In this document: positions 2,303 through 22,257 of the stretch, piece after piece
Layout: every line of letters starts with the position of its first letter
Numbering within the stretch: position 1 is the stretch's first letter
Origin: a virus
DNA: 25,033 nucleotides
Virus record (IMG/VR): IMGVR_UViG_3300033571_014625
Location: 1 to 25,033 of that record
Reading direction: 5' to 3' (one strand)
Made by a program: the position numbers and the translations under genes
The notes under the pieces: generated by a model
The model's database searches: none
What the model saw: only the letters and a program-made list of their open reading frames with translations
What the model was told of the DNA's origin: nothing

Positions 2303-4375
2303 ATGTTTGATATTCCTTTATTTAGAGATAGGTATTCACTTACCAAGATTGCTATGCCTGCAACTGTATCATTACCAGATGATGACAAGAAGTGGGGGCC
2401 ACAAGTATTAAGCGAGTTGCACAGACAAGCTCCTATTATGCAAGATTATCATAGCAACATTGTTATGGACAGAACTGACCCACAAAAAGGCTACGGCTTT
2501 GGTTATATTATTGCTACACCAAAAACAAATAATCCTTTACTTGCGGATACACTTCCATCTGTAAAAATTCCGGTAGTTATTCGTAACTTTAGACTATCCC
2601 CTTTTGATGTTTTCTTCGACCAATCAGGTGATGGGTTTCCACTAACTGAACGCAGATTACAGCAAGCCTTGATGCGCATGGATCCGTTTGATGGCCCTGT
2701 TAATGAAAATGAACCAGGACCAGGTAGTGACGTTCGTCAGATGCTAACACCTCCTTGGGAAAATGTTGGTCAGTTTTATAGAGGTGTTAACAGTGCTGTG
2801 AGTCAAGCCGGACAAGTAAAAACGTCATCCTTACTCAGTAGTCTAAGCGGGTATATTCAACCAAAGGCTTTAGTTAAAATTGCAAATTGGGTCCGATCAG
2901 ACGAAGGTAAACATTTACTCTACAATAATGACGCAAGAGATGCATTTCAACGATCTTTAGGTCTTCGCCCAATGGCTACAGATAATTTAGTAAAGGTTGC
3001 AGAAGCAGAAGGACCCGTTGTTATCCAGTACAGATGGAATGGCGGAGACAACGTTATGGTAAAGTTTGCACAGCCTGGAGGTTTTGACCCTCAGCAAGGA
3101 CAAGTACCCGCCCAAGACGCCGCCCAACAAATGCCCCCTGAGCAACAAGAACAGTTAGCGCAAGACGGCGCAGCAGTCCAGGCTCCACAGATGGAAGTAA
3201 TGTCTCCCGAGCAAATGGATATGGACGAGTTTCAACCCGTTTCAACTTTTGGTGTTTACAAGGTAATCACAGTTAATAACGAACAAATGCTAGGTTGGGT
3301 TTTCCCATTCCTTTTATCATTTAAGATGGAAAAAATCCCAATGGCGTTATTTACAGACGGGTCTAACTATGCCACACACCAAATGATTCCAGGGGTATTA
3401 GCAGGTACATCAACTGCACTACCAAGTGAAACTCCTCAAGGTCGGGGATTTTTCTACGTAGTTAGAAACGGTAAAGCTTTTGCATTTGCACCTATCGATC
3501 TTATGGGGGAGCAACAGCAGCCCGACGGTAGTGTAGTCTATATGGCAACTACTATTTTAGGTGGTAATCAAATCCAATTACAAAAGGTACAAGGCATGAA
3601 CTCACCTGCTGAGATGGGTGAGCAGATGTTCGCAATACCAATGGACGTAAAGTGGGTTTCATTTAAGAACCAAACAAATCCTTTGGTTGAAGATCCTATG
3701 CAGGCTAGCCAACGCTCAGCATCATATTTAATGGCACAACAGGCTCAAGCTCAACAAGCTGCCATGGCTCAGCAACAACAAGCGCAACAAGGAGGCGGTA
3801 AACAACAAAAGACCGCTTCTTTAATGGCTACAGTTAGAGCAACGCAAGACAATACCTATACTCTTGGTGGACCAGCGTTTGAGGAATTAGATAGAAAACA
3901 TACACACTTTTTAGACGCATCTGATACAGCTTGGATGTTAGCATTGGCTGGTATCGATCCAGACTATACAATGAGTAAGCTTGCCTCTATTCATATTATG
4001 GACAAGGGTTTCTTAGAGTTTCCTACCTTACGTAGACTTACACCACCACGTGTAGAACATGTAAAAATAGCCTCTTTGTCTCACCCAATCTATAAGCTAA
4101 ATCGTTTCTTAGTTAAAGAGGCGGCAGCAATTCAAGATCCAATGATTGCTGATACACTTTTATCTTTAAACTTTCTAACACCTGACAATATCTCCCACTT
4201 TATTGCAAATATTCCTCAGCTAGAAGAAACAATTCATTTGTTATCAAATATGCTTTTGGCTTCAAGAGTTGGCGCAAAAGAGATTCCAGAAGGTGCGTGC
4301 AGTGATGCTCTTAGGAATTTGGATGATGTTATCAATGGTATAAGACTACTTACCATGAGAGACGTAAACGTATGA
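2303..4375 (+). CDS. Large virion-associated protein of unknown function with two Q-rich linkers and eight KxA motifs
   Basis: I do not recognise the family of this 690-residue protein. It starts after a good AGGAG site. Globular-looking segments are separated by two low-complexity linkers rich in Gln, Ala and Pro, at about residues 259-312 and 477-502. The recurrent K-x-A motif occurs at K15, K192, K231, K254, K503 (directly after the second linker), K559, K588 and K605. The first is L13-T-K15-I-A17, the same position as in three other proteins here. This layout would fit a structural or internal head protein cut at several sites by the prohead protease, but that is inference. Its size would allow a portal, yet I see no portal signature. 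The stop overlaps the next start as ATGA. Confidence 0.75.
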   Translation: MFDIPLFRDRYSLTKIAMPATVSLPDDDKKWGPQVLSELHRQAPIMQDYHSNIVMDRTDPQKGYGFGYIIATPKTNNPLLADTLPSVKIPVVIRNFRLSPFDVFFDQSGDGFPLTERRLQQALMRMDPFDGPVNENEPGPGSDVRQMLTPPWENVGQFYRGVNSAVSQAGQVKTSSLLSSLSGYIQPKALVKIANWVRSDEGKHLLYNNDARDAFQRSLGLRPMATDNLVKVAEAEGPVVIQYRWNGGDNVMVKFAQPGGFDPQQGQVPAQDAAQQMPPEQQEQLAQDGAAVQAPQMEVMSPEQMDMDEFQPVSTFGVYKVITVNNEQMLGWVFPFLLSFKMEKIPMALFTDGSNYATHQMIPGVLAGTSTALPSETPQGRGFFYVVRNGKAFAFAPIDLMGEQQQPDGSVVYMATTILGGNQIQLQKVQGMNSPAEMGEQMFAIPMDVKWVSFKNQTNPLVEDPMQASQRSASYLMAQQAQAQQAAMAQQQQAQQGGGKQQKTASLMATVRATQDNTYTLGGPAFEELDRKHTHFLDASDTAWMLALAGIDPDYTMSKLASIHIMDKGFLEFPTLRRLTPPRVEHVKIASLSHPIYKLNRFLVKEAAAIQDPMIADTLLSLNFLTPDNISHFIANIPQLEETIHLLSNMLLASRVGAKEIPEGACSDALRNLDDVINGIRLLTMRDVNV

Positions 4376-5196
4376 TAAAGCACCCAAGTGAATTGTTCAT
4401 TAAACATTTACTAACACTTAGTTTTGATGACGACGCAGTTAAAAATGCGTTAAAAGATTTTGGCTTACCGCCTATCTTAGATACTCATGCGAGTTATTTA
4501 AATGAGTTAAGAACGTCTTTGGACTCAAACAAGCCCAAATGTTTTAATATTGCGGATACATCAGACGATAGCGTAAATTATTTAAAGGGTCATAAGATTT
4601 ATAATTTATTGCACCCAGATGCGTCTGTTCTCTCTTGTATACAAGTTTTTGATAATCCACAAGCTAGGCGAGACTTATTTATGGGTATTCTTGGTAGAAT
4701 AGATGAAACACAGCTAGTCGGCCATATTAACCGTAAGTTTTCCCTAGATATTAGCGTTAGAACGCTTCAGATTATTAAACACTATTATTTCAATTCCGAT
4801 GGCATTTCTTCAGAGGATTGGGCTGATCTATTTTCAAATATGCCAGGTGGTACAGATGCCACTGGATTTGAGTCTTGTCTATCTGGTGGAGCAAGTGTCG
4901 CTTCATATCGTATTGGTATTGAACAAAATGTTACAATACGTGAAGTTGTAAAAGAAGCTGTAACAGCTCTTTACGTTTCCTTACAAGAAGTAAAACATTG
5001 GCCTGCGTCATCATCAAAAATTAAAGTTTTATCAGACACTGTAAGCGCACTTGCTAAGGCGCACGCAGTTATGAACACCGCTGACCAAGAATTAGCAGCC
5101 GTTGCGTCCGAATTAAAACAATTTAAGCTGGCAAGAAATACAAACAAACCGATTCCATTAGATATACTAGCAAAGCAAGGTAAAGTTCATGCTTAA
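4372..5196 (+). CDS. Hypothetical phage protein (274 aa), operon member
   Basis: This is an unrecognised, mostly helical, soluble-looking protein with no signal peptide or membrane segment. Its ATG overlaps the preceding stop (ATGA), and its own end overlaps the next gene by 8 bases, so it is probably translationally coupled in the beta'-spike operon. Late K-x-A-like sequences occur (LAKAHA, FKLARN), but none lies near the N-terminus, unlike in the internal-protein candidates. Its place between a large virion protein and two further small genes suggests a structural or assembly role. The sequence alone does not show which. Confidence 0.7.
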   Translation: MIKHPSELFIKHLLTLSFDDDAVKNALKDFGLPPILDTHASYLNELRTSLDSNKPKCFNIADTSDDSVNYLKGHKIYNLLHPDASVLSCIQVFDNPQARRDLFMGILGRIDETQLVGHINRKFSLDISVRTLQIIKHYYFNSDGISSEDWADLFSNMPGGTDATGFESCLSGGASVASYRIGIEQNVTIREVVKEAVTALYVSLQEVKHWPASSSKIKVLSDTVSALAKAHAVMNTADQELAAVASELKQFKLARNTNKPIPLDILAKQGKVHA

Positions 5197-5557
5197 AGAC
5201 GAATACTTTTCAAAGAATTTTAAAACGGAACCAGTTATATTTCATGATGTTACATCCACCTTTTATACATGTAGCTTTGCACAAAAGGGTAATGACATGA
5301 TTTACCATTTTTATGGTACTCCTAAATGTAGTTCTTTAGCGATATCCCAAATCATCGAGCCAATCTTTTTAGAAACGTTAGGTGAAGACAGCCGTAAGAA
5401 TATAAGCGTAGAGTTTATAAATGACCCACTTCTAGATAACCTAGAGTCTGTCTTTGTAAAAGTAGAAAACCTATGTAAAAATGAGTTAGCACTTAAAAAA
5501 ATGCGTAGAGATGTTTTTGAGCTACTACATGAAAAATTGGGGCAACGATATGCATGA
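5189..5557 (+). CDS. Hypothetical phage protein (122 aa), operon member
   Basis: This is a small alpha/beta protein of unknown family with scattered cysteines (for example TFYTCSF, TPKCSS and ENLCKN) and a basic helical C-terminus (LKKMRRDVFELLHEK). It overlaps the upstream gene by 8 bases and the downstream gene by 8 bases when the downstream start is taken at 5550. That tight packing is the main support for its being real and cotranslated with its neighbours. No motif indicates a function. Confidence 0.65.
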   Translation: MLKDEYFSKNFKTEPVIFHDVTSTFYTCSFAQKGNDMIYHFYGTPKCSSLAISQIIEPIFLETLGEDSRKNISVEFINDPLLDNLESVFVKVENLCKNELALKKMRRDVFELLHEKLGQRYA

Positions 5558-8939: not shown

Positions 8940-10691
8940 ATGCCCATAGTTAAAAATTCAGCAAGAACACGATCTAGTGTTGATAAACCCTATCGTGTAA
9001 CAAGATATAGCACAGATCCAAACCCAATACTAGAGGAGTGGGATTTTGAGCCAGATCTACCAGATGAGATGATGAGCCTTGATCCTTCTCTAATGGTAGA
9101 AGTACGCCCAACAGACTTTGTAGAGTTTGCGATTATGATACCAGATGAAAAGACTAAGGCGCTTCTACCATTCTCCTTTGGTAATCGTAGGTACTTACGA
9201 CCAATATATGACACTACTTCGCCACGTGTATTATTAAAATGTGGTCGCCAAGTAGAGAAGTCTACATATCTTGGTAATCGTTTATTAGCTCTTACGTGTA
9301 TTCAGCCAAACTTAACAGCTCTATATGTATCACCTACTAATCAACAGACAAAAACATTCTCTAATGACCGTATTAGAGAGCCATTAGAAACAAGCCCACG
9401 TTTAAAGGTGTGGACAAACCCATCACTATCCCAAAACGTTTTCCAAAAGAAGTTTATTAACCGTTCACAGATTGTACTTAGGTATGCGTTTTTAAATGCA
9501 GACCGTGTTCGTGGTATTCCCGCAGATCTAGTGTGTATAGACGAAATCCAAGATATTCTTACAGACAATATTCCCGTTATTGAAGAATGTATATCACACA
9601 GCTCATTCAAGTTTAAGCTCTATGCAGGTACACCTAAATCTCTTGATAATACAATTGAGGGTTTATGGATTGAGGAGTCAACGCAAAACGAATGGGTAGT
9701 TCCTTGTGATTCATGTGGGGGAGGCGACTTCCGGCACTGGAATATATTAGGCGAGGAAAATATAGGTAAAAAAGGTTTAATATGTGCAAAATGTGCTAAG
9801 CCTTTGAATGTCCTTCATGATGATTGTCAGTGGGCATCTTTAAATCCGAACCCACGCGTACCATACCCCATGGATGGTTATCGTATACCACAAATTATGG
9901 TCCCCTGGTTACAATGGAATGATATCCTAAATAAGCAGATGACGTACTCACGTGCTAAGTTCCATAACGAAGTTCTTGGTTTGTCTTACGACAGTGGTAC
10001 AAGACCACTTACAAGAAAAGATGTGGAGGATAACTGCAATCCAACAATAACGTTGGACGCACCAGGCATTAAAAGATCGATACAAGGAACGATTGGTAAG
10101 CAAGTATTTATGGGTATAGACTGGGGTACAGGAGAACAGACATTTACACTTGTTACAATTGGGTATTATTCTGGACATAAGTTTACAATCGTATATGCAA
10201 GACGATTTGAAGGGCCAGAGTCTGAGCCAACAATCCAAATACAAAAGATAGAGGAGCTTGTACGTATTTGGAGAGTATCTATGATAGGAACAGACTATGG
10301 TGGTGGTTTTGATAGAAATGACGCATTGATTCGTATTTATGGTCCACAAAAGGTATTTAAGTACCAATACTCAACAATTTCACAGGGGAAGGTAAAGTGG
10401 GATAATGGTCTTATGCGTTTTCTAGTCAATCGTACAGAGGTAATGTCGGATATATTCAATGCAATAAAACGCAAGGATGTTTTTTCGTTTCCTTGTTGGT
10501 CGGATTGGGAACAGCCGTTTGCATCCGATATGCTTAATATATTCTCTGAATACTCTGAACAACGTAGGTGTAATGAGTATAAAAAGAGTAAGAGTGTGTC
10601 AGACGATACCTTTCACTCTCTAGTACTATGCTTCCTAGTATCCCAGCTTACAAACCCACGACCTGATGTGTTAGTACCTCAAAAAGAATAG
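8940..10691 (+). CDS. terL: Terminase large subunit (ATPase and nuclease)
   Basis: This is the motor that pumps phage DNA into the prohead and cuts the concatemer. In the 583 residues I see an ATPase with Walker A CGRQVEKST (101-109, Lys107), Walker B LVCIDE (197-202) and a motif-III-like YAGTPKS (228-234). A zinc-binding insert follows with C256, C259, C282 and C285. The RNase H-like nuclease has MGIDWGTGE (Asp394), MIGTDYGGG (Asp452) and DDTFHSL (Asp555/Asp556). The arrangement resembles GpA-type terminases with a zinc insert. The only in-frame start nearby is ATG 8940, behind a modest GGTGAG; a stop codon lies upstream at 8922. Its 3' end overlaps a convergent minus-strand gene by 13 bases. 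No small subunit precedes it. Confidence 0.95.
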   Translation: MPIVKNSARTRSSVDKPYRVTRYSTDPNPILEEWDFEPDLPDEMMSLDPSLMVEVRPTDFVEFAIMIPDEKTKALLPFSFGNRRYLRPIYDTTSPRVLLKCGRQVEKSTYLGNRLLALTCIQPNLTALYVSPTNQQTKTFSNDRIREPLETSPRLKVWTNPSLSQNVFQKKFINRSQIVLRYAFLNADRVRGIPADLVCIDEIQDILTDNIPVIEECISHSSFKFKLYAGTPKSLDNTIEGLWIEESTQNEWVVPCDSCGGGDFRHWNILGEENIGKKGLICAKCAKPLNVLHDDCQWASLNPNPRVPYPMDGYRIPQIMVPWLQWNDILNKQMTYSRAKFHNEVLGLSYDSGTRPLTRKDVEDNCNPTITLDAPGIKRSIQGTIGKQVFMGIDWGTGEQTFTLVTIGYYSGHKFTIVYARRFEGPESEPTIQIQKIEELVRIWRVSMIGTDYGGGFDRNDALIRIYGPQKVFKYQYSTISQGKVKWDNGLMRFLVNRTEVMSDIFNAIKRKDVFSFPCWSDWEQPFASDMLNIFSEYSEQRRCNEYKKSKSVSDDTFHSLVLCFLVSQLTNPRPDVLVPQKE

Positions 10692-11245
10692 AGACGCAGT
10701 TTGAGCTTTGTTTCAAGAACGCGAGCATTTTTACGTTTATAAAAGCCTAGAAGTGCAATAATCTTTTCAATACATTGTTTAGCAGTATCAACTCCAATTT
10801 TTTTATATAATGCATTAGATATTCGAATAACATCCCTAGCCCACGTTTCTAAATCATCCCAACGCATTTCTTTAGCACTTATGATGGTATTGAAGCAATC
10901 CCTAGTAATAGATATCTCTTCATCAGTAAGTTCGGTAATTTCGTCTAATATAAGCCCATTGATAGACTCAATTACGGAAATTCTATTTTTCAATGCTCTT
11001 ATTTCTTGCTCTGCAAATTCTAATCGTTGAACAATTTTAGCATTTATTGTAGTATTCTGCATAGTAATGTGTAGCTTAGACACATCCTCAACCTTGAAGC
11101 AGACTTTGTTTTTTATCTTGACAAATGGTAGAACGCCTCTTTTCCTATATCTTAGGATAGTTCGCTCACTACAATTTAAAAAATCCGCTGCATCCTTTTG
11201 AGAGACGTATGTACTGACTACATCATCAATACCTTTTTGATTCAT
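10679..11245 (-). CDS. Excisionase/MerR-type helix-turn-helix protein with coiled coil (188 aa)
   Basis: Residues about 12-57 (YVSQKDAADFLNCSERTILR, then GVLPFVKIKNKVCFKVEDV) match the HTH_17 pattern: a sequence-reading helix followed by a small wing. A likely coiled coil follows (RLEFAEQEIRALKNRISVIE, about 74-93), then a helical C-terminal domain. The protein is therefore a DNA-binding oligomer. Known uses of this fold are excisionases, MerR-like regulators and some small terminase subunits. Being antisense to and overlapping terL by 13 bases, it could be a regulator of late genes or an unusually placed TerS; the sequence does not decide. The ATG at 11245 has GGGAG 6 bases upstream, on the opposite strand of the next gene's ribosome site. 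Confidence 0.8.
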   Translation of the reverse strand: MNQKGIDDVVSTYVSQKDAADFLNCSERTILRYRKRGVLPFVKIKNKVCFKVEDVSKLHITMQNTTINAKIVQRLEFAEQEIRALKNRISVIESINGLILDEITELTDEEISITRDCFNTIISAKEMRWDDLETWARDVIRISNALYKKIGVDTAKQCIEKIIALLGFYKRKNARVLETKLKLRLYSF

Positions 11246-11257: not shown

Positions 11258-12037
11258 ATGGCTATATATGACAAGATGGCACTAGCAGAAATTGGAAAAC
11301 GTGCATCAGATCTATTTCTGAAACATGAAGTGCCTTTAGTGGATGCCATCGTTAAAGTAGCTAGTAAATTACCCGACTTTACAGATGAACATGTAAAACG
11401 TGTAATTGAGAACGCAAATTTAGTGACATTCGAGGAGATGTTTAAATCATCCGACTCAAAACACATTACATTCGATTTGGCTGAGTTTAATGATGTCAAA
11501 GAAAAAATGCAAGCCGAAATGCACGGTGGTAAAGAGCCAACTAGTATGGAATATCTAGTGCCTCCTGACGCACCAAAGATGGAAACAAACGTATTTGATC
11601 GTGAATCTCTTGAAAAAGCTAGTAGCTACACAGATTTTCCAAAGCATTTAGTAGACAAACGTGATAGGGAACATATTAAACAAGCTCAAGCACATGTGTC
11701 TGAATGGTTGTTAAGAACTGATAACGATTTACAAAATGAAATTGCTATCTTAAATACCATGTGTAAGCGAGCAAGCTTAGCGCATGGTGTAGAAAGCGTT
11801 GCTTATCTTTTAGATGCAAGTACACGAGACAAAGAAACGCTAACTAAAATTGCATCTATTATTGACATTCCTGTATTAGAGCATGAAAATAAAAATCAAG
11901 TACCTAACACTGAACACCCAATTGTAATCCAATACAACAAATGCGTTGGTCTTGTAAAAGAAGCTAAACGTTTGAGAGGCGCTTCAGTATATCTAGAAGA
12001 TCAACGACAAAAATTACTACATACTGTGGGGAGATAA
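11258..12037 (+). CDS. Helical virion-associated candidate with KxA motifs (259 aa)
   Basis: I place the start at ATG 11258 behind AGGAG. Longer reading frames to the left would run into the divergent gene and lack a ribosome site. The family is not recognised. The protein is mostly helical, with a polar middle (EPTSMEYLVPPDAPKMETN, about 93-111). The recurrent motif occurs at K14 (GKRAS), K33 (IVKVAS), K170 (CKRAS), K197 (LTKIAS) and K234 (LVKEA). It opens the head module ahead of the coiled-coil protein and the protease, so an internal or scaffold-associated head protein is the most likely role. This rests on context and the shared motif. Confidence 0.7.
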   Translation: MAIYDKMALAEIGKRASDLFLKHEVPLVDAIVKVASKLPDFTDEHVKRVIENANLVTFEEMFKSSDSKHITFDLAEFNDVKEKMQAEMHGGKEPTSMEYLVPPDAPKMETNVFDRESLEKASSYTDFPKHLVDKRDREHIKQAQAHVSEWLLRTDNDLQNEIAILNTMCKRASLAHGVESVAYLLDASTRDKETLTKIASIIDIPVLEHENKNQVPNTEHPIVIQYNKCVGLVKEAKRLRGASVYLEDQRQKLLHTVGR

Positions 12038-12039: not shown

Positions 12040-13464
12040 ATGAGCATTCTTGATAAGTATAATTTAACAGAGGAACAACGCGATCGTGTAATGACAAAAG
12101 TGGCATCTACACTTAGCGAATTACAAAAGACTGACACACTTGAAAAGGTTGCAGTGGATTGGCACTCACCTATTGCCCAGACCGGTTTAGCATTAGCAGC
12201 TACAGCCGTTGGCACAGGTATCTCTATGGGTGTTCCTAAATTAGTAGATGCAATTAGAGCGGCTAGTATTAGGCGAAATAAAGACGAATACTTAAAAGCT
12301 ATGAAAGATGCTCACCCAGAGCTTAAAAACGTTTCACAGAGAGATTTGGATTTAGCGTACAATTCTATGGCAATGCATAGTCCAGGCGTTATTAAAGATC
12401 CGCTTCTTGGTGGACAAGTTATGAAAGAAATTACAGGACGTGCAATGCGTTGGGATCTTAATCAGTATAGTACTCTCAATCGTACAGCTGGTGGAGGTCT
12501 TGCAGATTATGAACACCAAGCTTTACAACAATTTGGTAAAGGTGTTGGAAATCTCACAAATGTTTATTATGATGCTTCCGCAAAGGCTGACCAAGCCAAA
12601 CGTGATCAAGAACGTTTGAATCTTAGCCAACAAGTACACACTTACAATACTCAAAAAGATCAAAGAGCTGAGCAATTCCAAAAAGATCAATTTGACTATC
12701 GAAAGACACAAGATAGCGCCGCTGATGCGTTTAATAAAGAAAAATTCCAATTTGAGAAAGATAAGAATACTGAAGCTAAGGCATATCAAGATAAGCAACT
12801 CGCAAATCAAGATAGACAATTTACAGCACAAGAGGCGAGAGATAGACAACAACAAGGTAATTTTGAACGTACCTTTAATGCTAACGCAGCCGATCGTACT
12901 TTTCAGCAGAATATGGCTAATAAGAATTATCAAGCATCACAAGATCGAGACACTCAGCAACAGTCTAACTTCAATAGACAATTTACAGCACAAGAGGCGA
13001 GAGATAAGCAACAACAAGGTAATTTTGAACGTACCTTTAATGCTAACGCAGCCGATCGTACTTTTCAGCAGAATATGGCTAATAAAAAGTACGATATGGA
13101 TTCAACCAATCAAGCTTATAATATGGGATTTGATATTGAACGCAGTGGCCACACTACAAATCGTTACGACGTTGCGCATAGAGAAGCCCTCGGTAGAGCA
13201 CAGGCTGACTTAGACTTTAAGATGAAAAACCAAAAAGATGTAAATACATTGGCAAGAAATCAGTCCTACAATCAAGCACAAGGCCAGGCGCAAGGTCAGG
13301 TAGACGCAGAGAATAGGAATTACGCTTATCACATGAATAAAGCGTATGATATGGGCTACCACGGTACTACTGGTAAAAATGATGCTCCTGCTATCTTATA
13401 CGATACAAAGTCTGGTAACCATATAGGCAATAAACCTAGTAATTATCTAAGACCCTATAAATAA
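12040..13464 (+). CDS. Long Q-rich helical repeat protein with N-terminal membrane-like segment (474 aa)
   Basis: The N-terminus carries two recurrent motifs (MTKVAS, K20; LEKVAV, K36), then a Gly/Ala-rich hydrophobic segment at about 44-65 (GLALAATAVGTGISMGVP) that could cross a membrane. From about residue 185 the chain is a long, highly polar helix rich in Gln, Asp, Arg and regularly spaced aromatics. It includes a 54-residue unit present twice, with a nearly identical DNA repeat. The C-terminus is rich in Asn, Gly and Tyr. The family is not recognised. The design fits a rod-like protein stored in the head and perhaps ejected with DNA, as known for internal proteins of some phages; this is inference. 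A tape measure is less likely because it sits in the head module. A GGGAG site precedes ATG 12040. Confidence 0.75.
   Translation: MSILDKYNLTEEQRDRVMTKVASTLSELQKTDTLEKVAVDWHSPIAQTGLALAATAVGTGISMGVPKLVDAIRAASIRRNKDEYLKAMKDAHPELKNVSQRDLDLAYNSMAMHSPGVIKDPLLGGQVMKEITGRAMRWDLNQYSTLNRTAGGGLADYEHQALQQFGKGVGNLTNVYYDASAKADQAKRDQERLNLSQQVHTYNTQKDQRAEQFQKDQFDYRKTQDSAADAFNKEKFQFEKDKNTEAKAYQDKQLANQDRQFTAQEARDRQQQGNFERTFNANAADRTFQQNMANKNYQASQDRDTQQQSNFNRQFTAQEARDKQQQGNFERTFNANAADRTFQQNMANKKYDMDSTNQAYNMGFDIERSGHTTNRYDVAHREALGRAQADLDFKMKNQKDVNTLARNQSYNQAQGQAQGQVDAENRNYAYHMNKAYDMGYHGTTGKNDAPAILYDTKSGNHIGNKPSNYLRPYK
12812..12923 (+). repeat. 112-bp direct repeat, copy 1, in coiled-coil gene
   Basis: This segment recurs at 12974-13085, 162 bases (54 codons) later, with only two mismatches (AGATAGAC versus AGATAAGC). 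The reading frame is kept, giving QFTAQEARD and FERTFNANAADRTFQQNMAN twice. The near-identity at synonymous sites implies a recent in-frame duplication. Confidence 0.9.
12974..13085 (+). repeat. 112-bp direct repeat, copy 2, in coiled-coil gene
   Basis: This is the second copy of the 12812-12923 segment, offset by 162 bases, a multiple of three. The sequence between the copies (QASQDRDTQQQSNFN) looks like a diverged part of the same periodic rod. Confidence 0.9.
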
Positions 13465-13476: not shown

Positions 13477-15342
13477 ATGATCATTAAAGAGAGCATGTTT
13501 CCAGCGTTTAACTCCTATGGAGAACCGGTCGTACGACTCCTTAATGACATAGGTACGCCTGGACTTATGGAGAAGACAGCTGGAGTTCACCCCGAAATCC
13601 TTGCATATAAGATGAACTTAACCCCTGACCCCAATAAAACTTATGTTCACATCATAGCTTTGGGCGCGGGGGAATACTATGGTGCTAATCTTAACAACGA
13701 CTATTTTCCTTGGAAGGCGTTAGCTCACGATCATACAACAACTCCTCATGAACATATACATGGGTATAAGACATTCTTAAATGCACATGCATTCGCACAC
13801 CATGTAAATAAAGATCCCGAAAAGGCTTATGGAGATGTTCTTCTTAGCGTTTTAAATCATAAGATGAAACGTGTAGAGTTGATTGTTGCTATTGATAATG
13901 AGAAGTGTATTCGCAATGGTGGATCTAAAACACTTGAACGTATTAACAATGGTGAATTCCCAAGCACATCTATGGGTTGTAGAGTACCTTATGATACTTG
14001 TAGTATCTGTGGCAATAAGGCTAAGACGCGCGTTCAATACTGCGACCATATGAAAACAGAGGCTGGAAAGATCTACGCAGATGGTAGAAAAGTATTTGTA
14101 TACAATGACTACCCTAGATTTTTTGACATTAGTTTTGTTTTTATTGGTGCGGATCGTACTAGCTTTGTACTTGAAAAGATTGCTTCTATAGAGAAGACCG
14201 CGGGAGACGCAGGTCTTGGAAAAAATCTAAGAAAAAACGCGGGGACTGTACAAGAAAAACTTGTCGATAGAATACCACGTAAGGTAGAGCGACAAGATAG
14301 ACTTAGGCCTCGACCAATGTCGTTTGGTAAAATAAATACTATGCTAAAACGAGATAAAGAGAGCAAAGCTATTCCCTTGATTACGCAGACTGCTTTTAGC
14401 CCAAGAAACTCTTTGTTGTTTACAAATGGTAGTAGTATGCTAATTAGATCGGGTGATACAACCAAAAAAATTGAGGGGGGCGAGATGAAAACCGCATCAT
14501 TTAAATTTGCCGAAACATCCAAGCATAGTGATATATTTAAAGATGTCGATGCGACTCCTATGGGTAAAGCTGTAAAGATACTAGCGGGTACAGACGAAGA
14601 TCTTCCTAAACCTATTTTAAATGCGATGGCATCTGAGGGTGACTTAGGGTCAACGCTAAGCCAAGCTGCTGGTATGGGTATTGTTCTAAAGCCAAAAGAA
14701 TTCCAACGCGTTATTTTAACAAGAAGTGGACAACCAGATTTAGCGGATGATTTAGAAGATGACGGCACATGCTTTGATAGTCATGATGAACACGTCCCTG
14801 TTATGAGATCAGTAAGAATTATTATCGGATCTACAGGAGGCGTGACACCAAATATAGCAAGTATGCTTGCACCTATTCTTCAAGCTAGAAGTGCTTTAAC
14901 ACCGTTTGCAACTCGTAGAATGATAACTATAACGGCAGTCCCAAAGCCATCAAACGGCTGTGGTTGCGGTGGTGATGATGACAGCTACAGTGAGGATGAC
15001 AGCTACGACGACAGTTCTATGGGTGGGTGCGGGTGTTCTAACGCAATGCCTATTTTACAGAAGATTGCTAGCATGTATCATGGATACAGACAAGATGTGT
15101 TAGAAAATATGGAAACATTAATTTCTGACGCGTATAATAGTGGATTGAAACGAGAAATTGAAAAAACTAGAGGAGGTAGCTATAATGATGACGAAGTTAT
15201 TGAAAAAATCGCATCATTTGCTATACCATACTTTAGCAATGCCTATTGGTCTAACCCGCAGGCAAGCTCTAGCATGAGTAAGTTTGCGTCTTTTAGCCCA
15301 AAACTTTCAAACTACTTACTCAAATCTCTTGCCAATAAATAA
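13477..15342 (+). CDS. Probable prohead (head maturation) protease with zinc knuckle and long C-terminal extension
   Basis: The N-terminal about 230 residues follow the pattern of serine prohead proteases: a His region (AFAHHVNKDPEKAYGDV, H108/H109), a hydrophobic strand ending in Asp140, a putative nucleophile in STSMG (S165), and FDISFVFIGADRTSF (217-230), like the usual EiSlV-PA strand. Between Ser and that strand lies a probable zinc knuckle, C175-x2-C178-x10-C189-x-H191. The remaining about 390 residues are unusual. They include KxA motifs at K234, K240, K338, K529, K577 and K602 (another is at K33), and two Cys-Gly-Cys clusters (495-497, 518-520) flanking an acidic linker. The protease would cut scaffold and other head proteins during maturation, perhaps releasing itself from its tail. 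Catalytic assignments are by pattern only. The gene follows AAGGA and precedes the scaffold candidate. Confidence 0.65.
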   Translation: MIIKESMFPAFNSYGEPVVRLLNDIGTPGLMEKTAGVHPEILAYKMNLTPDPNKTYVHIIALGAGEYYGANLNNDYFPWKALAHDHTTTPHEHIHGYKTFLNAHAFAHHVNKDPEKAYGDVLLSVLNHKMKRVELIVAIDNEKCIRNGGSKTLERINNGEFPSTSMGCRVPYDTCSICGNKAKTRVQYCDHMKTEAGKIYADGRKVFVYNDYPRFFDISFVFIGADRTSFVLEKIASIEKTAGDAGLGKNLRKNAGTVQEKLVDRIPRKVERQDRLRPRPMSFGKINTMLKRDKESKAIPLITQTAFSPRNSLLFTNGSSMLIRSGDTTKKIEGGEMKTASFKFAETSKHSDIFKDVDATPMGKAVKILAGTDEDLPKPILNAMASEGDLGSTLSQAAGMGIVLKPKEFQRVILTRSGQPDLADDLEDDGTCFDSHDEHVPVMRSVRIIIGSTGGVTPNIASMLAPILQARSALTPFATRRMITITAVPKPSNGCGCGGDDDSYSEDDSYDDSSMGGCGCSNAMPILQKIASMYHGYRQDVLENMETLISDAYNSGLKREIEKTRGGSYNDDEVIEKIASFAIPYFSNAYWSNPQASSSMSKFASFSPKLSNYLLKSLANK

Positions 15343-15381: not shown

Positions 15382-16095
15382 ATGGATGAACTACTTTTAA
15401 ATGAGTTATATGGCAATGTCGAATCTGCTGATGATGAACAAGTTAAACTTGCTCAAGCTGAATTTGTAGAACAAGCCGCATTAGAAGCTGGCATTGACAT
15501 TGATACATTAAACGATGACGAATTGAACAAGTTTGCCGAATACGTATTGGACAATTCCAACGTTTCTGACGAACAAGAATATTCCTATTTAACACAAGAA
15601 CAAGCTCTTGAAGCAGATGAGATGGGTAGAATCATGGCTCACTCTTATGCTGACGAACTAAACAAAATTGCTTCCTACGAAGGGGACGATCAAATGACTG
15701 AAGAACAATATGTTGTGGCGCTAGCCTTACAAGACATTGCAAACGCTTGGGACGAAGAACTTGAAGGCGAAGGCTTTATTAAGTCAGCATCCGCCGACAT
15801 TGCTTTAGAATTCCTTGAAGCTGGGGAACCAGAATTAGCTTATATCCAAATGCTTGATTCAGAAGAATTCGCTAAAGAAGCTGAATATCGCGCTTCCGAG
15901 ATTCTTTTAGCCTATGGTATCGATCCAGTTACCTTAGAAGATGTAGAACCAGAATATGTTAAACTTGCGTCATTCCCAGAAGTAGAAGATGCAGATAACT
16001 ATGCTACAGCTGAAGTTTTGGCTGAATACAATGATAAGCTTGACACTGCTGCTGAATACATCATCGAATGTTTAGTAGGAAGTATTTTTGGTTAA
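15382..16095 (+). CDS. Highly acidic protein, scaffold candidate (237 aa)
   Basis: The protein is strongly acidic throughout, helical and without membrane segments, as expected of a head scaffold. Six recurrent motifs are spread at fairly regular distances: K22 (VKLAQ), K50 (NKFAE), K95 (NKIAS), K134 (IKSAS), K165 (AKEAE) and K194 (VKLAS). If these are protease sites, the scaffold would be cut into peptides of about 30-45 residues for exit, as known for scaffolds of other phages; this is inference. It lies directly after the protease, has its own promoter and a CGGAG site, and its codon use resembles that of the capsid gene, suggesting high expression. No family is recognised by sequence. Confidence 0.6.
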   Translation: MDELLLNELYGNVESADDEQVKLAQAEFVEQAALEAGIDIDTLNDDELNKFAEYVLDNSNVSDEQEYSYLTQEQALEADEMGRIMAHSYADELNKIASYEGDDQMTEEQYVVALALQDIANAWDEELEGEGFIKSASADIALEFLEAGEPELAYIQMLDSEEFAKEAEYRASEILLAYGIDPVTLEDVEPEYVKLASFPEVEDADNYATAEVLAEYNDKLDTAAEYIIECLVGSIFG

Positions 16096-16098: not shown

Positions 16099-16386
16099 AT
16101 GAATACGTATGTATGGAATAGCTTTAGACGTGAACTAATTAAGATGGCAGGTATGAATCCTATGCAATCCCCAATTAATGCACAAAGAGCTCCAAACGTA
16201 CAGACTAATATTTCCAAACAAGTAGGTATGCAACAGGGTCCTATGACACCTCCAGTACCAACAGTGTTTAAGGCGCCCCCCGCGCCTCCACCATCTCCTA
16301 GTACAAGAATTAATACTGCACAGGAGATGGTTCAACAATTGCCTCAAGGTCATACGAATACCTTACCTACGAATACGCTTTACTAA
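16099..16386 (+). CDS. Small proline-rich protein with L13xK15xA17 leader (95 aa)
   Basis: This short gene is 3 bases after the scaffold candidate. The first 20 residues carry aromatic and basic residues, then L13-I-K15-M-A17-G. The rest is unstructured, rich in Pro, Gln and Met (KAPPAPPPSPSTR near 58-70). No clear ribosome site is present, so it may be translated by coupling with the gene before it. It is not a recognised family. The leader followed by a disordered body recalls internal head peptides of T4-like phages, by analogy only. Confidence 0.6.
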   Translation: MNTYVWNSFRRELIKMAGMNPMQSPINAQRAPNVQTNISKQVGMQQGPMTPPVPTVFKAPPAPPPSPSTRINTAQEMVQQLPQGHTNTLPTNTLY

Positions 16387-16396: not shown

Positions 16397-16699
16397 ATGA
16401 GTAACAACTTAAAGTCGCTTATTGATAACGCTCTCAAATTCGGTGAGCAATACCAAGACGAAAGAGCAACTTCCGAACAGGTATTCACCGCAGATGAGGC
16501 AAGCACCGACATTGAAAAGTTAGCAGCTGCTTTAGATTTTATTGCAGTTAACTTAGATGACATGGAACCAACAGCCGAAGAGAAACTTGCGGAAGCTGAG
16601 CTTTTAGTATCCTATATTACAGATATGCAAAATGGAAGTGTAGTAGAGCAATCTAATCCACAATCCGTTGTAGATCTTATTAGAGCCAGAAGAGGTTAA
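16397..16699 (+). CDS. Small acidic helical protein (100 aa)
   Basis: This is an unrecognised acidic, helical protein starting after AAGGAG. Recurrent-motif matches appear at about K41 (IEKLAAALD) and again in EEKLAEAE; unlike its neighbours it lacks one within the first 20 residues. It is tightly packed between two other small head-module genes, with a 1-base gap to the next. It could be a scaffold accessory or an internal protein; there is no direct evidence for either. Confidence 0.6.
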   Translation: MSNNLKSLIDNALKFGEQYQDERATSEQVFTADEASTDIEKLAAALDFIAVNLDDMEPTAEEKLAEAELLVSYITDMQNGSVVEQSNPQSVVDLIRARRG

Positions 16700-16700: not shown

Positions 16701-17066
16701 ATGAAAAAGATTGCATCAATTAAAGCAGCTAGTCAACTTATCAAGGTCGCTAGTACACGTTTACGAGAACTAGACGAGGAAAATCGTTATCTTCGAGAAC
16801 AAGTTCAACATTTTGAGCAAATGAATAAGGCTGCGTCTCTCGCTAAAAAGATGGCGGATCGTGGTCTTGTTGATACAACAGATGTAGACACACAAGCAAC
16901 AATGATTTATGCGAATCCTCAAAAGATGAATGCGATTGAGGAAGCGATGGATTTATTAAATGGTGGCGGTTCATTTAAGATTGCAACCCTCTCAGACGAG
17001 CAAGGACGTGTAGCTACTACAGCACGCTCCGCACTAGAATCATACTTAATCGGAAATGAACTCTAA
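16701..17066 (+). CDS. Small coiled-coil protein with repeated KxA motifs (121 aa)
   Basis: The first 18 residues hold two recurrent motifs (K3-I-A5-S and L13-I-K15-V-A17-S). A coiled coil follows (RLRELDEENRYLREQVQHFE, about 20-39), with further motifs at K43 (NKAAS) and K93 (FKIAT). The C-terminal part is mixed, with a glycine run (LLNGGGSF, about 85-92). It starts after AGAGG and ends 11 bases before the next gene. I do not recognise the family; the position directly before the capsid-shell genes suggests an assembly or internal head protein. Confidence 0.65.
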   Translation: MKKIASIKAASQLIKVASTRLRELDEENRYLREQVQHFEQMNKAASLAKKMADRGLVDTTDVDTQATMIYANPQKMNAIEEAMDLLNGGGSFKIATLSDEQGRVATTARSALESYLIGNEL

Positions 17067-17692: not shown

Positions 17693-17703
17693 GGAGTATA
17701 AAA

Positions 17704-18876
17704 ATGACATACAGTGCAGAAATGATCAATTCCCTTTTTGTGGAAAAGTTAGGTACCGAAGAAGGTCGTTCAAAGCTCGCTGCTTATGGTGGTGGTGTTA
17801 TCCGCGACCATTTGCGCGAAGTATCCTTTGCTCGTAAGGTATTACCCCCACAACCTATTACTCCCGCAGAATGCCAAGTTTCTACTGAACATGACGGGCT
17901 TGTAAAGATTGAAGAACTCGAACCAGAATCACGCGCAATGGTCGTTGACTTCCGCGGTGGTGCTAGAGCTCGCTATATCCGTGCACCTCGTGTTGCCGTT
18001 TCCTTCTTTACAATCGAATCCGAACACTTCGAAAAGACTGAACAAGAATTGCTCGCTTATAAGATGCCAATCACTAAAATGATTGAAGAACAATCTGCGA
18101 ACAACTTACAAGAAATCGAAGATCGTCAATTCCTTTTGTTTGCTGAAGCCGGTATTCAACAAATTCAAAAGGATAGCAATGAAAAGGCTGGCGTTGCTCA
18201 TGCTGGTTTCTCTGCTACACGCGTAAACAACGGAACTGTTGCTGTTGGTCCAGATCAAAACGCTTCCGTTATGAAGGGTCAATTAGCTTTGACTGCTGGC
18301 GTAGATGACTTTACTGTACGCCCAATCAATAGACCCGACTTTGTAAACTTCTTTAAGATGATGAGCGGTCCAGAACGTAGATTACGTTTGGAACTCGTTC
18401 TTTTGACTGAAGCAGACTATGATGACATCCTCCAATGGACTCTAGAAGATATGGGTGATCGTATCCAATCAGAAACCGTTGTAGATGGCTATAAATATAA
18501 CACACTCTTAGGTCGTCGCTTTATTAGAACAATTAAGACTGACATCCTTCGTCGTGGTAATCTTTATGGTTTCACTACTCCTGAGTTCATGGGATGTTTT
18601 TATATCTTGAATAACACAAAGTTCTATGTAGACAAAGTTGGTAACAAGATTACATTCTGGTGTTGGGAAGACATTGGTATGGCATTCTTAAATCTCAACT
18701 CTCTTGTTAAGATGGAACTTTATAGCGGTTCTGTAACACCTGGTCATGAAACACAAATTCAAAGTGGTCTTACATATCTTAGCCGCTTACCAGCTACAGA
18801 AGAAAACCTCGGCCGTGCTAGAAATCAAGCATTTGCAGATGGTAGCTTCGTAGCTCCTCTTGTTACACAATTCTAA
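17704..18876 (+). CDS. Probable major capsid protein (390 aa)
   Basis: Several features point to the shell subunit: the length of 390 residues usual for HK97-fold capsid proteins, placement after protease, scaffold and decoration candidates, a strong AAGGAG site, and codon use typical of a highly expressed gene. The chain has a helical N-terminus with K24-L-A26 (GRSKLAAYGGG), which could be a delta-domain cleavage point. A long acidic spine-like helical segment follows (IESEHFEKTEQELLAYKMPI, about 101-120). Beta-rich parts are at about 210-340. I identify it by context and general pattern and cannot show the fold from sequence alone. It is the last gene before an 84-bp promoter gap. Confidence 0.75.
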   Translation: MTYSAEMINSLFVEKLGTEEGRSKLAAYGGGVIRDHLREVSFARKVLPPQPITPAECQVSTEHDGLVKIEELEPESRAMVVDFRGGARARYIRAPRVAVSFFTIESEHFEKTEQELLAYKMPITKMIEEQSANNLQEIEDRQFLLFAEAGIQQIQKDSNEKAGVAHAGFSATRVNNGTVAVGPDQNASVMKGQLALTAGVDDFTVRPINRPDFVNFFKMMSGPERRLRLELVLLTEADYDDILQWTLEDMGDRIQSETVVDGYKYNTLLGRRFIRTIKTDILRRGNLYGFTTPEFMGCFYILNNTKFYVDKVGNKITFWCWEDIGMAFLNLNSLVKMELYSGSVTPGHETQIQSGLTYLSRLPATEENLGRARNQAFADGSFVAPLVTQF

Positions 18877-18894
18877 GAATATTATTGTACTTTA

Positions 18895-18923: not shown

Positions 18924-18960
18924 ATACATAAATTGAATACCACACCTCTACGGAGACATT

Positions 18961-19434
18961 ATGTATAGGATCGAATTACTCTCTCAAAAAGAGCTTACAG
19001 ACTTATTAAGACGCGGGATTAGAACACGCACACTCACTATTACTACCACAGACGGAAGTAATATTCGTTTGATGCCAAATCGTCCCGTGATCGTGTCTGA
19101 TGAAACAATTAAAATGAATCCATCAATTTTGACTGATCCAACTGTCAAGGCTAGACATATTCCAGATAAAAAGATTGTTGATACTATTAGACAAGAAGAG
19201 TTTGCAATTATTGAACTTCCCGTTGATTTAGAAGTTCGTAAGGTACAGCCAGCTGTTGAACAAGTACAAGAAGAAGCACAACCAATTGTTGAGCACAAGG
19301 AAGAAGAAATCTCTGATGCAGACATTGAAGCTCTTTTACTAACACCTTCAGAAAATGATCCTGAAGAAACGGTTGAAGAGCCCGCTGATGCGCCACAACA
19401 AAAACAAGTAAGCTCTAAAAGAAAGAGAAGATAA
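18961..19434 (+). CDS. Hypothetical protein with acidic tail (157 aa)
   Basis: Residues about 1-80 look like a small beta-containing domain (TRTLTITTTDGSNIRLMPNR). From about 95 the chain is disordered, rich in Glu, Gln, Val and Pro, ending in a basic SSKRKRR. The start has a GGAG with 5-base spacing directly downstream of the promoter gap. The stop overlaps the next ATG by one base. No family is recognised. The position right after the capsid gene suggests a neck, decoration or assembly protein. Confidence 0.7.
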   Translation: MYRIELLSQKELTDLLRRGIRTRTLTITTTDGSNIRLMPNRPVIVSDETIKMNPSILTDPTVKARHIPDKKIVDTIRQEEFAIIELPVDLEVRKVQPAVEQVQEEAQPIVEHKEEEISDADIEALLLTPSENDPEETVEEPADAPQQKQVSSKRKRR

Positions 19435-19925
19435 TGTCTCGTGCAAGCCAACAAAGTCTAGCTAGTTTTGTATCTCAAGTACGTATGTATTTACGTGATT
19501 ACCCAGAGCTCAATCGTCTTATCGATGGTGAAGAGACTAGCGATAGAATGATTGCGTGGGCTGTAATTGATACACTAGACGACATTAACAACACTCCTCC
19601 TTTTTTAGGTGCGTACAATGTTGAGAACTTTCCATATAGACACTTGCTTATGCGGGGAACAGTTATATCAATTTTAGAATCAGTTGGTATGCTACAAACA
19701 CGTAATCAACTTAACTACAGTGATGGCGGTATAAGCGTACAAGCGTCTGATAAAGCGCCTATGATTATGCAGTGGATTGGTATGTTTAGGTCTACATACG
19801 AACAAAAGAAAAAAGACTTTAAAATATCCATGAATCTCGCAATGGGGTTTGATGGACAATCAATTCAATCAGACTATTACTTTATCGGCGGGTACTACGA
19901 TGTATTCGACAAGGTATTTAGATAA
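19434..19925 (+). CDS. Putative head-tail connector (neck) protein (163 aa)
   Basis: This helical protein has the look of head-completion adaptors: VRMYLRDYPELNRLIDGEE (about 16-34), a helix with AVIDTLDDINNTPPF, then MLQTRNQLNYSDGGISVQAS (about 86-105) and YEQKKKDFKISMNL. I believe this layout recurs in connector-like proteins of other phages, but I cannot confirm a family. Translation is coupled to the gene before it (TAATG). Genes between capsid and sheath in myoviruses commonly encode the neck, which supports the call. Confidence 0.45.
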   Translation: MSRASQQSLASFVSQVRMYLRDYPELNRLIDGEETSDRMIAWAVIDTLDDINNTPPFLGAYNVENFPYRHLLMRGTVISILESVGMLQTRNQLNYSDGGISVQASDKAPMIMQWIGMFRSTYEQKKKDFKISMNLAMGFDGQSIQSDYYFIGGYYDVFDKVFR

Positions 19926-19934
19926 GGAGATAAT

Positions 19935-20339
19935 ATGGCTACACCAGCAGATACCCCCCTCACAGGACCAAAACCTCCCGTAGGGAGTCCCCCATATTTA
20001 ATAAATGCGTTTGCAGGCTCAACATATAATGCTATTGGCGGGAATGCCGAACCCGATAAGCAGTTCACTGGATATAGTGATGTTGGTACTCTACGTATGA
20101 ATATGCTGCAATGTATTATGTTCCACGGCTACGCAGCCGGAATGAGATTAGCTGAATTTGTACGTAATTATAAGAATAACGACGGAACAGTTGGTGCCAT
20201 TCTTTTGACCGGTATTAATATTGTACTCGACTCTCAAGACGTTTTTCATTTATTCTATATGGGTACAAATGAAGATGACGATGACAATATTGCTCTTAAG
20301 GCCCGCCTTACGGGTGGACCAAAAGGATTTGGAGGTTAA
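19935..20339 (+). CDS. Hypothetical neck-region protein (134 aa)
   Basis: This unrecognised protein starts after AAGGAG. The N-terminus is proline-rich and flexible (TPLTGPKPPVGSPPY), then a mixed alpha/beta core (RMNMLQCIMFHGYAAGMRLA, about 54-73; VGAILLTGINIVLDSQDVF), an acidic turn (NEDDDDN) and a glycine-rich end. It has no KxA motif and no membrane segment. It is tightly packed between the connector candidate and a glycine-zipper protein, so a neck or tail-completion role is plausible but unproven. Confidence 0.65.
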   Translation: MATPADTPLTGPKPPVGSPPYLINAFAGSTYNAIGGNAEPDKQFTGYSDVGTLRMNMLQCIMFHGYAAGMRLAEFVRNYKNNDGTVGAILLTGINIVLDSQDVFHLFYMGTNEDDDDNIALKARLTGGPKGFGG

Positions 20340-20341
20340 TC

Positions 20342-21070
20342 ATGACATGGTTTAAAGATGAAAGTGTTGTGGATGTTCTATACAAGCAAGCTTCCGCCTT
20401 GGAGGATTTACAGCCTGAAAGATTCTCTAGTGTCAATAGAACTGATCTCGCTAGTAAGACATTGGGTATGGGAGGTGTTCTTAGCGGAAACCGACATATG
20501 ATTATGGCATCAAGAGCTCTTAGGCCTACAAGCATGGCACTAAAGGAAAAAGCACTGAGAATGCAAACTCTAAAGGCGAGAGGATTAAAGACAGAAGATA
20601 TTCCTCGTCCCATTGACAGTCATGTAAAAACCGCCGGACTCTTCATGAAGCCTTCTGACTTAGCCGATCATAGAAATTTGGCAAATGTTTTAGAAGGTGC
20701 CTTATCTAATAGTAATCAAACTAAGAATTTTAAGAAGCATGCTAGTATTGATCCATATCGTGTAGCTGGAGCAGTCACTGGTGCAGCCGTGGGAGCCACT
20801 AGTGAGTATTTAAGACAGCAATACGTAGGTAAAAGAAATGACCCAATACCACCTCCACAACCTGTTGAAGGAACGCTGCCTGAAAAAACTAGGGCGTTGA
20901 TAAGCAATGCTAAAAATCAAGCGGAAGATTGGTCTAGAAAAAATCCAATGACATCCGTATTAGCGTCCACTGCGACGGGAGCGGTAGCGGGAGGAGTTTT
21001 AGGTAGCTCTTTACCAAATGCTTATAAAAATCTAGTCACGACTATTAAAAATATACCTGTCAGACCTTGA
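20342..21070 (+). CDS. Membrane-hairpin-like protein with L13xK15xA17 leader (242 aa)
   Basis: After a GGAGG site the protein begins with a leader carrying L13-Y-K15-Q-A17-S; further motifs are K96 (HVKTAG) and K132 (KKHAS). Two Gly/Ala-rich segments follow: about 141-153 (VAGAVTGAAVGAT) and 205-222 (SVLASTATGAVAGGVLGS), separated by a proline-rich linker (PIPPPQPVEG). Small-residue spacing of this kind (glycine zippers) is typical of helices packed in membranes or pores. The protein might be held in the virion and inserted into the host envelope during DNA entry; this is inference. The family is not recognised. Confidence 0.65.
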   Translation: MTWFKDESVVDVLYKQASALEDLQPERFSSVNRTDLASKTLGMGGVLSGNRHMIMASRALRPTSMALKEKALRMQTLKARGLKTEDIPRPIDSHVKTAGLFMKPSDLADHRNLANVLEGALSNSNQTKNFKKHASIDPYRVAGAVTGAAVGATSEYLRQQYVGKRNDPIPPPQPVEGTLPEKTRALISNAKNQAEDWSRKNPMTSVLASTATGAVAGGVLGSSLPNAYKNLVTTIKNIPVRP

Positions 21071-21089
21071 TATAATAAAAGAGGACTAA

Positions 21090-21908
21090 ATGATAAGTAT
21101 TAAAGAACTTGTTTTAGATAGCTTTGATCTAAATTATATTGACGTATCTTGGAGTATAAATTCCAATACTGATGATATACTTAAATACGAGTTCTTTGTT
21201 GAACGGGGAGAATCTCCTGCAGGTCCCTTTGAAATTGTGGCAGGTCCTCTTGTAGATAGGTATCATGTTAGGGATAACATAGCTCCACGAAGAATGTCGT
21301 GGAGACAGCTTTATTATAGAGTTACTTGTAAAGACACGTTGAACAACACAACTGTTGAATCTCCCGCTAAAAATCTTTCAGCACGACTTCCTTTTGACGC
21401 TATTGAGATGATAAGATTGTTTAATCTTCAATTGCGTGAGTTTACGGGTAGACCATGTTTACTATTCCCACTTAGAACGTTTGGGCAAAGATGCGTATGT
21501 TTTGACGTGATTAGTCAGCGTAGAACTGTCTCATCTTGTAAAACTTGCTATAATACAGGATTTATAAGAGGGTATCATTACCCTTTATTGATTTATATAC
21601 AAATAGATCCTTACGCAAAGAATAAAGAAGTTCGTGAGGAAATTATATCTAACGGGGCTTTGACAGGAGCGAAAACAATAGCGTATCCTATACTAAAACC
21701 TGGAGATATTCTTGTTGAAAGAGAAGGAACTCGTTGGAGAGTCCAAAGTGTTCAAAATACGGAGAGATTGCGATCACCTGTTCAACAAAATCTAAACTTA
21801 TTCAAGATTACGGAGGGTGACATAGAATTTGCTTTACCAATTACATGGCCTAGTGAGTATGTGACATCCCCCAGATCTTATAACCCCAAATCAGACATAG
21901 GAACATAG
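21090..21908 (+). CDS. Putative neck protein with fibronectin-III-like domain and zinc ribbon (272 aa)
   Basis: Residues about 10-95 resemble a fibronectin type III domain (DVSWSINSNTDDILKYEFFV, then LYYRVTCKDTLNNT). A Cys cluster follows, RCVCFD (C134, C136), then SSCKTCYNTGFIRGYHYPL (C148, C151). I recall similar CxC...CxxC, GTGF, GGY-type segments in head-tail joining proteins of other phages. The C-terminal half has a basic, beta-rich part (DILVEREGTRWRVQSVQNTE, about 210-229). It starts after AGAGGAC and precedes the last small genes before the sheath. A structural neck or connector role is likely. No KxA leader is present. Confidence 0.5.
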   Translation: MISIKELVLDSFDLNYIDVSWSINSNTDDILKYEFFVERGESPAGPFEIVAGPLVDRYHVRDNIAPRRMSWRQLYYRVTCKDTLNNTTVESPAKNLSARLPFDAIEMIRLFNLQLREFTGRPCLLFPLRTFGQRCVCFDVISQRRTVSSCKTCYNTGFIRGYHYPLLIYIQIDPYAKNKEVREEIISNGALTGAKTIAYPILKPGDILVEREGTRWRVQSVQNTERLRSPVQQNLNLFKITEGDIEFALPITWPSEYVTSPRSYNPKSDIGT

Positions 21909-21909
21909 T

Positions 21910-22257
21910 ATGAATGGAAGACTCTTTAGAATAATATCCGAGTTGCATGGTGATATTTATGATACACCCATATTTGATGGCGTTAAGCTAGCAGAACACA
22001 CGCCAGAGCATGGTAATAGACTTAGAGATCTAGGTTTAATGGTAGGTGGATCCGCAGCAGGTGCCGGTGCTGGTTATGGTGCGTCTAAATTAATTCGTAA
22101 GAAGTTTGGACCAACACTTGCTAAAGTAGATCCAAAAGATCGTTTAAAGTATATATTACCCGCATTAGCTCTTGCTGGTACTGCAACAACGATTGCCAAA
22201 CTCCAACAAAACAATTATACTAAAAATGAGAAGACCGCTTCACACTACTTAGGCTAA
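21910..22257 (+). CDS. Small glycine-zipper membrane-like protein (115 aa)
   Basis: The protein has a K26-L-A28 motif near the N-terminus and ends in NEKTASHYLG. Between them are two hydrophobic segments: a Gly/Ala zipper at about 41-62 (LGLMVGGSAAGAGAGYGASK) and a second at about 81-97 (YILPALALAGTATTIAK), separated by a basic loop. This two-helix hairpin could be a holin-like or injection-pore protein, but no holin family is recognised. The start has only a weak GGA, and the gene follows the previous one by one base, so coupling is likely. Confidence 0.6.
   Translation: MNGRLFRIISELHGDIYDTPIFDGVKLAEHTPEHGNRLRDLGLMVGGSAAGAGAGYGASKLIRKKFGPTLAKVDPKDRLKYILPALALAGTATTIAKLQQNNYTKNEKTASHYLG

Follow-up and report, generated by a model that had tools for sequence, protein, structure and literature searches.

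A K-x-A-S motif shared by head-region proteins is very likely the cleavage site of the prohead protease in a phage group that includes phage G

The maturational protease of herpesviruses cuts an Ala-Ser bond. For phages, prohead-protease specificity has so far been known for few model enzymes. T4 gp21, the phiKZ gp175-type protease and SPN3US gp245 cut after (L/I)-x-E, S-x-E and A-x-E (PMC5694885, PMC10052503). We analysed the whole of IMG/VR virus record IMGVR_UViG_3300033571_014625, a fragment of 25,033 bases (the window), in which a sequence-only reading had noticed that eleven unrecognised proteins share a short motif, hydrophobic-x-K-x-A-[S/G], near their N-termini. That reading had taken K-x-A before S/G for a prohead-protease signal of a new form, analogous to but different from the targeting peptide of T4 internal head proteins. 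Our results indicate that the phage's own prohead serine protease, whose gene lies at 13477-15342, very likely recognises and cleaves the motif, the predicted cut falling after the alanine.

In the 27 proteins of the window, the motif was observed 22 times, far above the 1.3 copies found in shuffled sequences (z 18), while K-x-A alone was counted 61 times against 35.5 expected. When R or E was swapped for K, one copy each was observed for about one expected, and K-x-A-S headed the list in an unbiased scan of spaced triplets (24 vs 2.4). The repetition is genuine. Its carriers are several of the genes lying between the terminase gene (8940-10691, Pfam GpA_ATPase) and the major capsid protein gene (17704-18876, PHROG major head protein), together with the ORFs starting at 2303, 20342 and 21910 (ORFs are named hereafter by their first position). 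Per-protein excess is clear in 2303, 11258, 13477, 15382, 16099, 16701 and 20342; it is weak from the window alone in 12040 and 16397, both of which are backed by homologues. TerL, the RNA polymerase beta' ORF, the spike and the connector candidates, from which the motif had been said to be essentially missing, are indeed at chance, and their homologues agree.

The motif was then counted in related phages. The related set comprised 67 IMG/VR loci recruited through the protease domain and 5 through the capsid protein; blastp found a protease relative in 74 of 74 loci, phages Arash and D69 included. From 76 loci, including the window and phage G but excluding T4 and Nappy, we assembled a non-redundant set of 908 ORFs (230,150 residues). 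In this set, no spaced triplet was more over-represented than K-x-A-S (372 vs 77 expected, z 34), and the strict motif occurred 267 times against 43 expected, compared with 50 against 43 for the mirrored motif. With R, E or Q in the place of K, or G in that of A, the excess disappeared, and K was the best residue at its position in nearly all loci. The residue following h-x-K-x-A (h, hydrophobic) was enriched for S/G, then for E and A, then for Q, with L and K unenriched; P, D, T, V and R were likewise unenriched at this position under the less strict K-x-A count. Further preferences were M/L/F/I at -2, E/V at -1 and T/V/I between K and A, where P and G were avoided. The site would take the form [M/L/F/I]-[E/V]-K-[T/V/I]-A↓[S > A,E > Q,G], the arrow marking the predicted cut, with alanine at P1, lysine at P3 and a hydrophobic residue at P5.

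Because the window record is only a fragment, Arash served as the whole-genome test. Of its 59 annotated structural genes, 4 were missed by the ORF caller; the 55 used contained 19 strict motifs against 4.9 expected, compared with 5 against 5.7 in the 222 other ORFs. The Arash capsid protein is merely 26% identical to that of the window. Across the related set, the families of 2303, 11258, 13477, 15382, 16701 and 20342 carried 11-64 times the expected number of motifs, TerL homologues (n = 49) carried 0.3 times, and homologues of 4372, 19434 and 21090 carried none. Positions are also conserved in homologues: among close relatives, the K of K-x-A was kept at 64-78% of aligned positions, versus 35-54% for other lysines.

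T4 and Erwinia phage Alexandra show no motif excess, and the head region of phage G contains 9 copies against 1.5 expected. In high-GC actinophages with a distant protease relative, the over-represented form is rather [K/R]-T-A-[S/G] (Nappy, 9 vs 1.3; RedWattleHog, 10 vs 0.9), and in the actinophage loci L080 and L082 the excess takes the form RTAG or [K/R]TA[S/G], which suggests that the site drifted along with the enzyme or with base composition. As judged from these sequences, the same signal is present in a large, mostly uncultured phage group that includes the giant phage G. Shuffle excess, restriction to structural genes in Arash, conserved positions, the lack of the motif in T4 and Alexandra and an aligned capsid cut in phage G (below) all speak for the earlier proposal of a new-form signal. 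The sequence-only reading knew of no comparable motif, and a limited literature search turned up no account of a K-x-A[S/G] prohead site either, although a prior mention is possible.

The enzyme is most likely encoded by ORF 13477 (13477..15342, plus strand, 621 aa), which has the features of a prohead serine protease and is predicted to act on head proteins. It matches PHROG 18299, head maturation protease (5e-10), as do 9 of 32 relatives, and its relatives include Arash gp222, phage G gp19, and Bxz1-like and Gordonia (actinophage) proteins, the Gordonia one being annotated as capsid maturation protease. S165 and H109, the putative catalytic residues, are invariant in 31 relatives, phage G and Alexandra among them. 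The gene sits between the terminase and capsid genes, an order identical in Arash. AlphaFold2 modelled a domain at residues ~38-213, taken as the catalytic domain, followed by a low-confidence, presumably disordered linker (214-369) and a helical C-terminal part. Foldseek retrieved phage G gp19 at 7e-9; its matches to named prohead proteases of BFVD were weaker (E ~6e-3 to 0.03). Searches of Pfam and NCBIfam assigned neither the motif proteins nor the protease to an informative family, and a PDB sequence search gave no match.

Candidate sites flank the protease domain within the protease itself. Immediately before it lies K33 (LMEKTA↓G, 13567..13584, plus strand), whose K33 and A35 are invariant in 32 relatives and which falls in the low-confidence model segment 15-36. 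Immediately after it lie K234 and K240 (LEKIA↓S-IEKTA↓G, 14170..14205, plus strand), candidate release sites: VLEKIAS in the window corresponds to VLQKVAS in D69 and ILEKVAS in phage G gp19, and the site is also found in loci L001-L003. A further linker site, K253 (LRKNAG, 14227..14244, plus strand), is weakly conserved. In the model, sites 33, 234, 240, 253 and 338 are all in low-confidence segments. The earlier claim that further copies follow inside the same proteins is well illustrated by this ORF, with copies at K33, 234, 240, 253, 338, 529, 577 and 602.

Two other traits of the protease gene may be recorded. Just past the conserved serine, residues 172-193 (13990-14070) form a C-x2-C ... 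C-x2-H cluster (CSICGNKAKTRVQYCDH) that recurs in phage G, has S/T in some relatives and could bind zinc. The protease gene of relatives also carries inteins: one in L049:8672-11479, ending VHN before SNINGD, and two in L070:8582-12601, one of them within the conserved FKHH/NKDP histidine motif. Protease ORFs of 900-2000 aa among L046 and L051-L071 suggest many more; the window gene has no intein.

The position of the cut is indicated by the capsid protein of phage G, which has 282 residues by gene and 255 when mature, as determined by N-terminal sequencing (Hua et al. 2017, Table 1; PMC5646251). The cut therefore falls after A27 (TEEGRVALA↓QAMANP). In an alignment of 18 capsid proteins, A27 occupies the column of window A26 (TEEGRSKLA↓AYGG), which sets the register of the cut behind the K-x-A alanine. 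The next-residue preferences of the motif agree with Q, E and A at P1'. The window site, K24-L-A26↓A27 (17767..17784, plus strand), had been noticed before and treated as an exception. The site is present as described, but it is probably a real one, with a non-canonical upstream residue.

Several observations weigh against this explanation. The only mapped cut is that of the phage G capsid, from which we infer the cutting of the canonical K-x-A-S copies by sequence likeness. That capsid site is non-canonical, with A in the place of K at P3, and most capsid homologues are without the full motif (1.2 times expected). The 'structural' labels of Arash are assumed, not stated in the record, to derive from virion proteomics. 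Loci L068, L071 and L073 carry a long protease relative, yet little K-x-A-S excess. In the model of 2303, K254 lies in a predicted strand and K559 in a predicted helix, so that not every copy need be cut. Lastly, a Foldseek search of the PDB with the protease model gave no significant match, cytomegalovirus protease appearing several times at E ~1.

Other origins of the motif fit the data less well. K, A and predicted helix abound in the motif proteins, and K-/A-rich helices or coiled coils could in principle produce such a pattern by chance or composition; however, composition-matched shuffles, the mirrored motif and residue swaps were used as controls, the last two remaining at chance, and positions are conserved between homologues. 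Composition bias was rejected on these grounds, and we give it almost no credence. Cutting by a host enzyme appears just as remote. Signal peptidase sites have a small residue at -1, which A-S resembles, but no hydrophobic signal stretch precedes the motif copies, the lysine would occupy -3, where it is disfavoured, and the motif tracks the phage protease family across Bacillus/Lysinibacillus, Salmonella and Vibrio phages. Host signal peptidase was rejected on these points.

The motif might also be an uncut docking or targeting element through which scaffold and cargo attach to one another, to the shell or to the protease in the prohead. The peak at residues 10-30 seen across many proteins would suit this role, as would the several copies within a predicted helix or strand, and T4 cargo does possess an N-terminal capsid-targeting sequence (PMC9958956). 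We nevertheless regard docking as unlikely, since sites flank the protease domain within the protease itself, a small residue is preferred after A, as is typical of a scissile bond, and the mapped phage G cut lies at the A column. A prohead-protease cut after the lysine, h-x-K↓x-A-S, would keep the register of T4 (L/I)-x-E↓, and the hydrophobic-x-charged pattern resembles those of T4 and SPN3US, where the cut follows the charged residue (PMC5694885). This register is rather improbable and was rejected, because the phage G capsid is cut after alanine and because A and S tolerate little more variation than K, with selectivity strongest around the A-S bond. Cleavage after the alanine by the phage's own protease is the reading that we retain. 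It is based on the motif statistics and on the conservation of its positions, together with its confinement to head and structural genes, its co-occurrence with the protease family and the phage G register match.

If the motif is such a cleavage site, the protease would enter the prohead as a precursor. In T4 gp21 the N-terminal residues block the active site (PMC9958956), and by analogy the protease would remove its N-terminal propeptide by a self-cut after A35. It would separate from its own C-terminal extension after A236 and A242. The scaffold or internal proteins 2303, 11258, 12040, 15382, 16099, 16397, 16701 and 20342 would be trimmed or fragmented, those with many copies (2303, 11258, 15382 and 16701) into several pieces, as is reported of SPN3US propeptides (PMC10052503). 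About 26 residues would be trimmed from the capsid protein. This processing would clear the head interior for DNA.

Compared with the T4, phiKZ and SPN3US systems, the locus shares a phage-encoded prohead serine protease, a three-residue core preceded by a hydrophobic or small residue and, here as predictions, numerous substrates, N-terminal propeptides that are each cut several times, and self-cleavage; S is preferred at P1', as in SPN3US. Unlike these systems, which have glutamate at P1, the core here is K-x-A and the homologous mapped cut follows alanine. Glutamate at P1 was examined as a mark of membership in that group: h-x-E-x-A[S/G] is at chance in the 908 ORFs (63 vs 54) and phage G cuts after Ala. 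As with the capsid targeting sequence of T4 internal proteins, short N-terminal segments end in a protease site, but no common N-terminal sequence was noticed beyond the cut site, and internal and C-terminal sites occur as well.

The herpesvirus assemblin (pUL26/UL80) cuts an Ala-Ser bond, which the motif may match: A is strict and S strongly preferred in it, and the one mapped bond, that of the phage G capsid, is A-Q. An N-terminal protease domain, an adjacent release site, predicted in the window, and a long C-terminal extension with sites near its end are common to both (PMC4498786). Differences from assemblin are the required K at P3, the extra N-terminal site, the non-significant PDB fold match and a C-terminal part whose scaffold role would be conjectural. 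Phage G (gp19/gp27) has a homologous protease bearing LEKVAS right after the domain, a K-x-A-S excess in the head region and a capsid cut after alanine in the window A26 column; unlike in the window, its capsid P3 is A, and gp19 (300 aa) is without the long C-terminal extension. We tentatively raise the possibility, doubtful as it stands, that the lineage from phage G to the uncultured phages has an Ala-Ser-type protease needing a P3 lysine, closer to assemblin than to T4 and of the same layout, and that A-S cutting may be ancestral or shared with herpesviruses.

The individual copies bear out most of what had been reported for the eleven proteins. The four exact L13-x-K15-x-A17 copies (2303, 16099, 16701 and 20342) are present, as are K14 (11258), K20 (12040), K33 (13477) and K41 (16397). 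K22 of 15382 (QVKLAQ) and K26 of 21910 (GVKLAE) are correctly placed but lack S/G and carry the hydrophobic residue at -1 instead of -2; K7 of 5550 (LIKLAV) is likewise in place without S/G, in an ORF without homologues whose motif count is at chance. Nine of the eleven proteins hold, 5550 does not, and 21910 belongs solely by its C-terminal K108 copy. The N-terminal location is partly borne out, with a peak at residues 10-30 (5-6 times expected) and about 3 times expected throughout the proteins. A purely N-terminal motif was rejected, as internal, linker and C-terminal copies exist, and from their sequences these copies are most likely part of one cutting signal.

Downstream of the left end of the window, where the RNA polymerase beta' end named by the sequence-only reading lies (32-34% identity over 275-350 residues to Arash and D69 ORFs), ORF 2303 (2303..4375, plus strand) encodes a candidate virion protein of 690 aa with eight K-x-A copies (K15, 192, 231, 254, 503, 559, 588 and 605). 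K15, K254/A256 and K605/A607 are invariant in 18 homologues at ~28% identity, and the strict motif is 15 times expected in the family (30 homologues). The K15 site (LTKIA↓M, 2339..2356, plus strand) lies in a low-confidence segment (1-20), as 5 of the 8 sites do. The protein is left unnamed because its model matched nothing among solved structures.

In the head region, all genes being on the plus strand unless stated, 11258..12037 encodes a 259-aa protein with sites K14, K33, K170 and K197, kept in position in relatives (21 times expected over 16 homologues). The Gln/Asn-rich, 474-aa product of 12040..13464, with internal repeats, carries K20 (MTKVA↓S), identical in locus L003, and its family has 5 times the expected motif (11 homologues). 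In the protease-capsid interval, 15382..16095 encodes an acidic 237-aa protein with K50, K95, K134, K165 and K194 (YVKLA↓S); K194 and K165 are kept in 5 of 5 close relatives compared, and the family is at 12 times expected. It is followed by ORF 16099-16386, with K15 (LIKMA↓G, 16135..16152) matched by ELEKIAG at K15 in the same-place ORF of L003, and by ORF 16397-16699, with K41 (IEKLA↓A, 16511..16528), which reads EKLAS or TKLAS in relatives. Upstream of the capsid gene, 16701..17066 encodes a coiled-coil-like protein of 121 aa with K3, K8, K15 (LIKVA↓S) and K43; K15 is kept in all relatives compared, and the family is at 64 times expected (6 homologues). Beyond the capsid gene, ORF 20342-21070 has K15 (LYKQA↓S, 20378..20395; LYKEAA in L003; 14 times expected, 4 homologues), and ORF 21910-22257 has the C-terminal K108 (NEKTA↓S, 22225..22242). 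The latter is conserved in L003 as NEKKAS; the N-terminal K26 is not. The ORF named as sheath by the sequence-only reading is open at the right end of the window.

ORF 12040-13464 also contains two near-identical stretches of ~35-45 residues (QFTAQEARD[RK]QQQGNFERTFNANAADRTFQQNMANK). Beside the terminase gene, a lone minus-strand ORF (10679-11245) has a helix-turn-helix-like N-terminus (DAADFLNCSERTILRYRKRG).

Since the motif predicts cut proteins, unrecognised head-region proteins would gain a role. In phage G and in dozens of uncultured phages, a motif readable from sequence would predict both the proteins that enter the prohead and the positions at which they are cut, a prediction directly testable in the isolated phages G, Arash and Vibrio D69. 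An Ala-Ser specificity, if true, would bear on the relationship between phage and herpesvirus capsid maturation.

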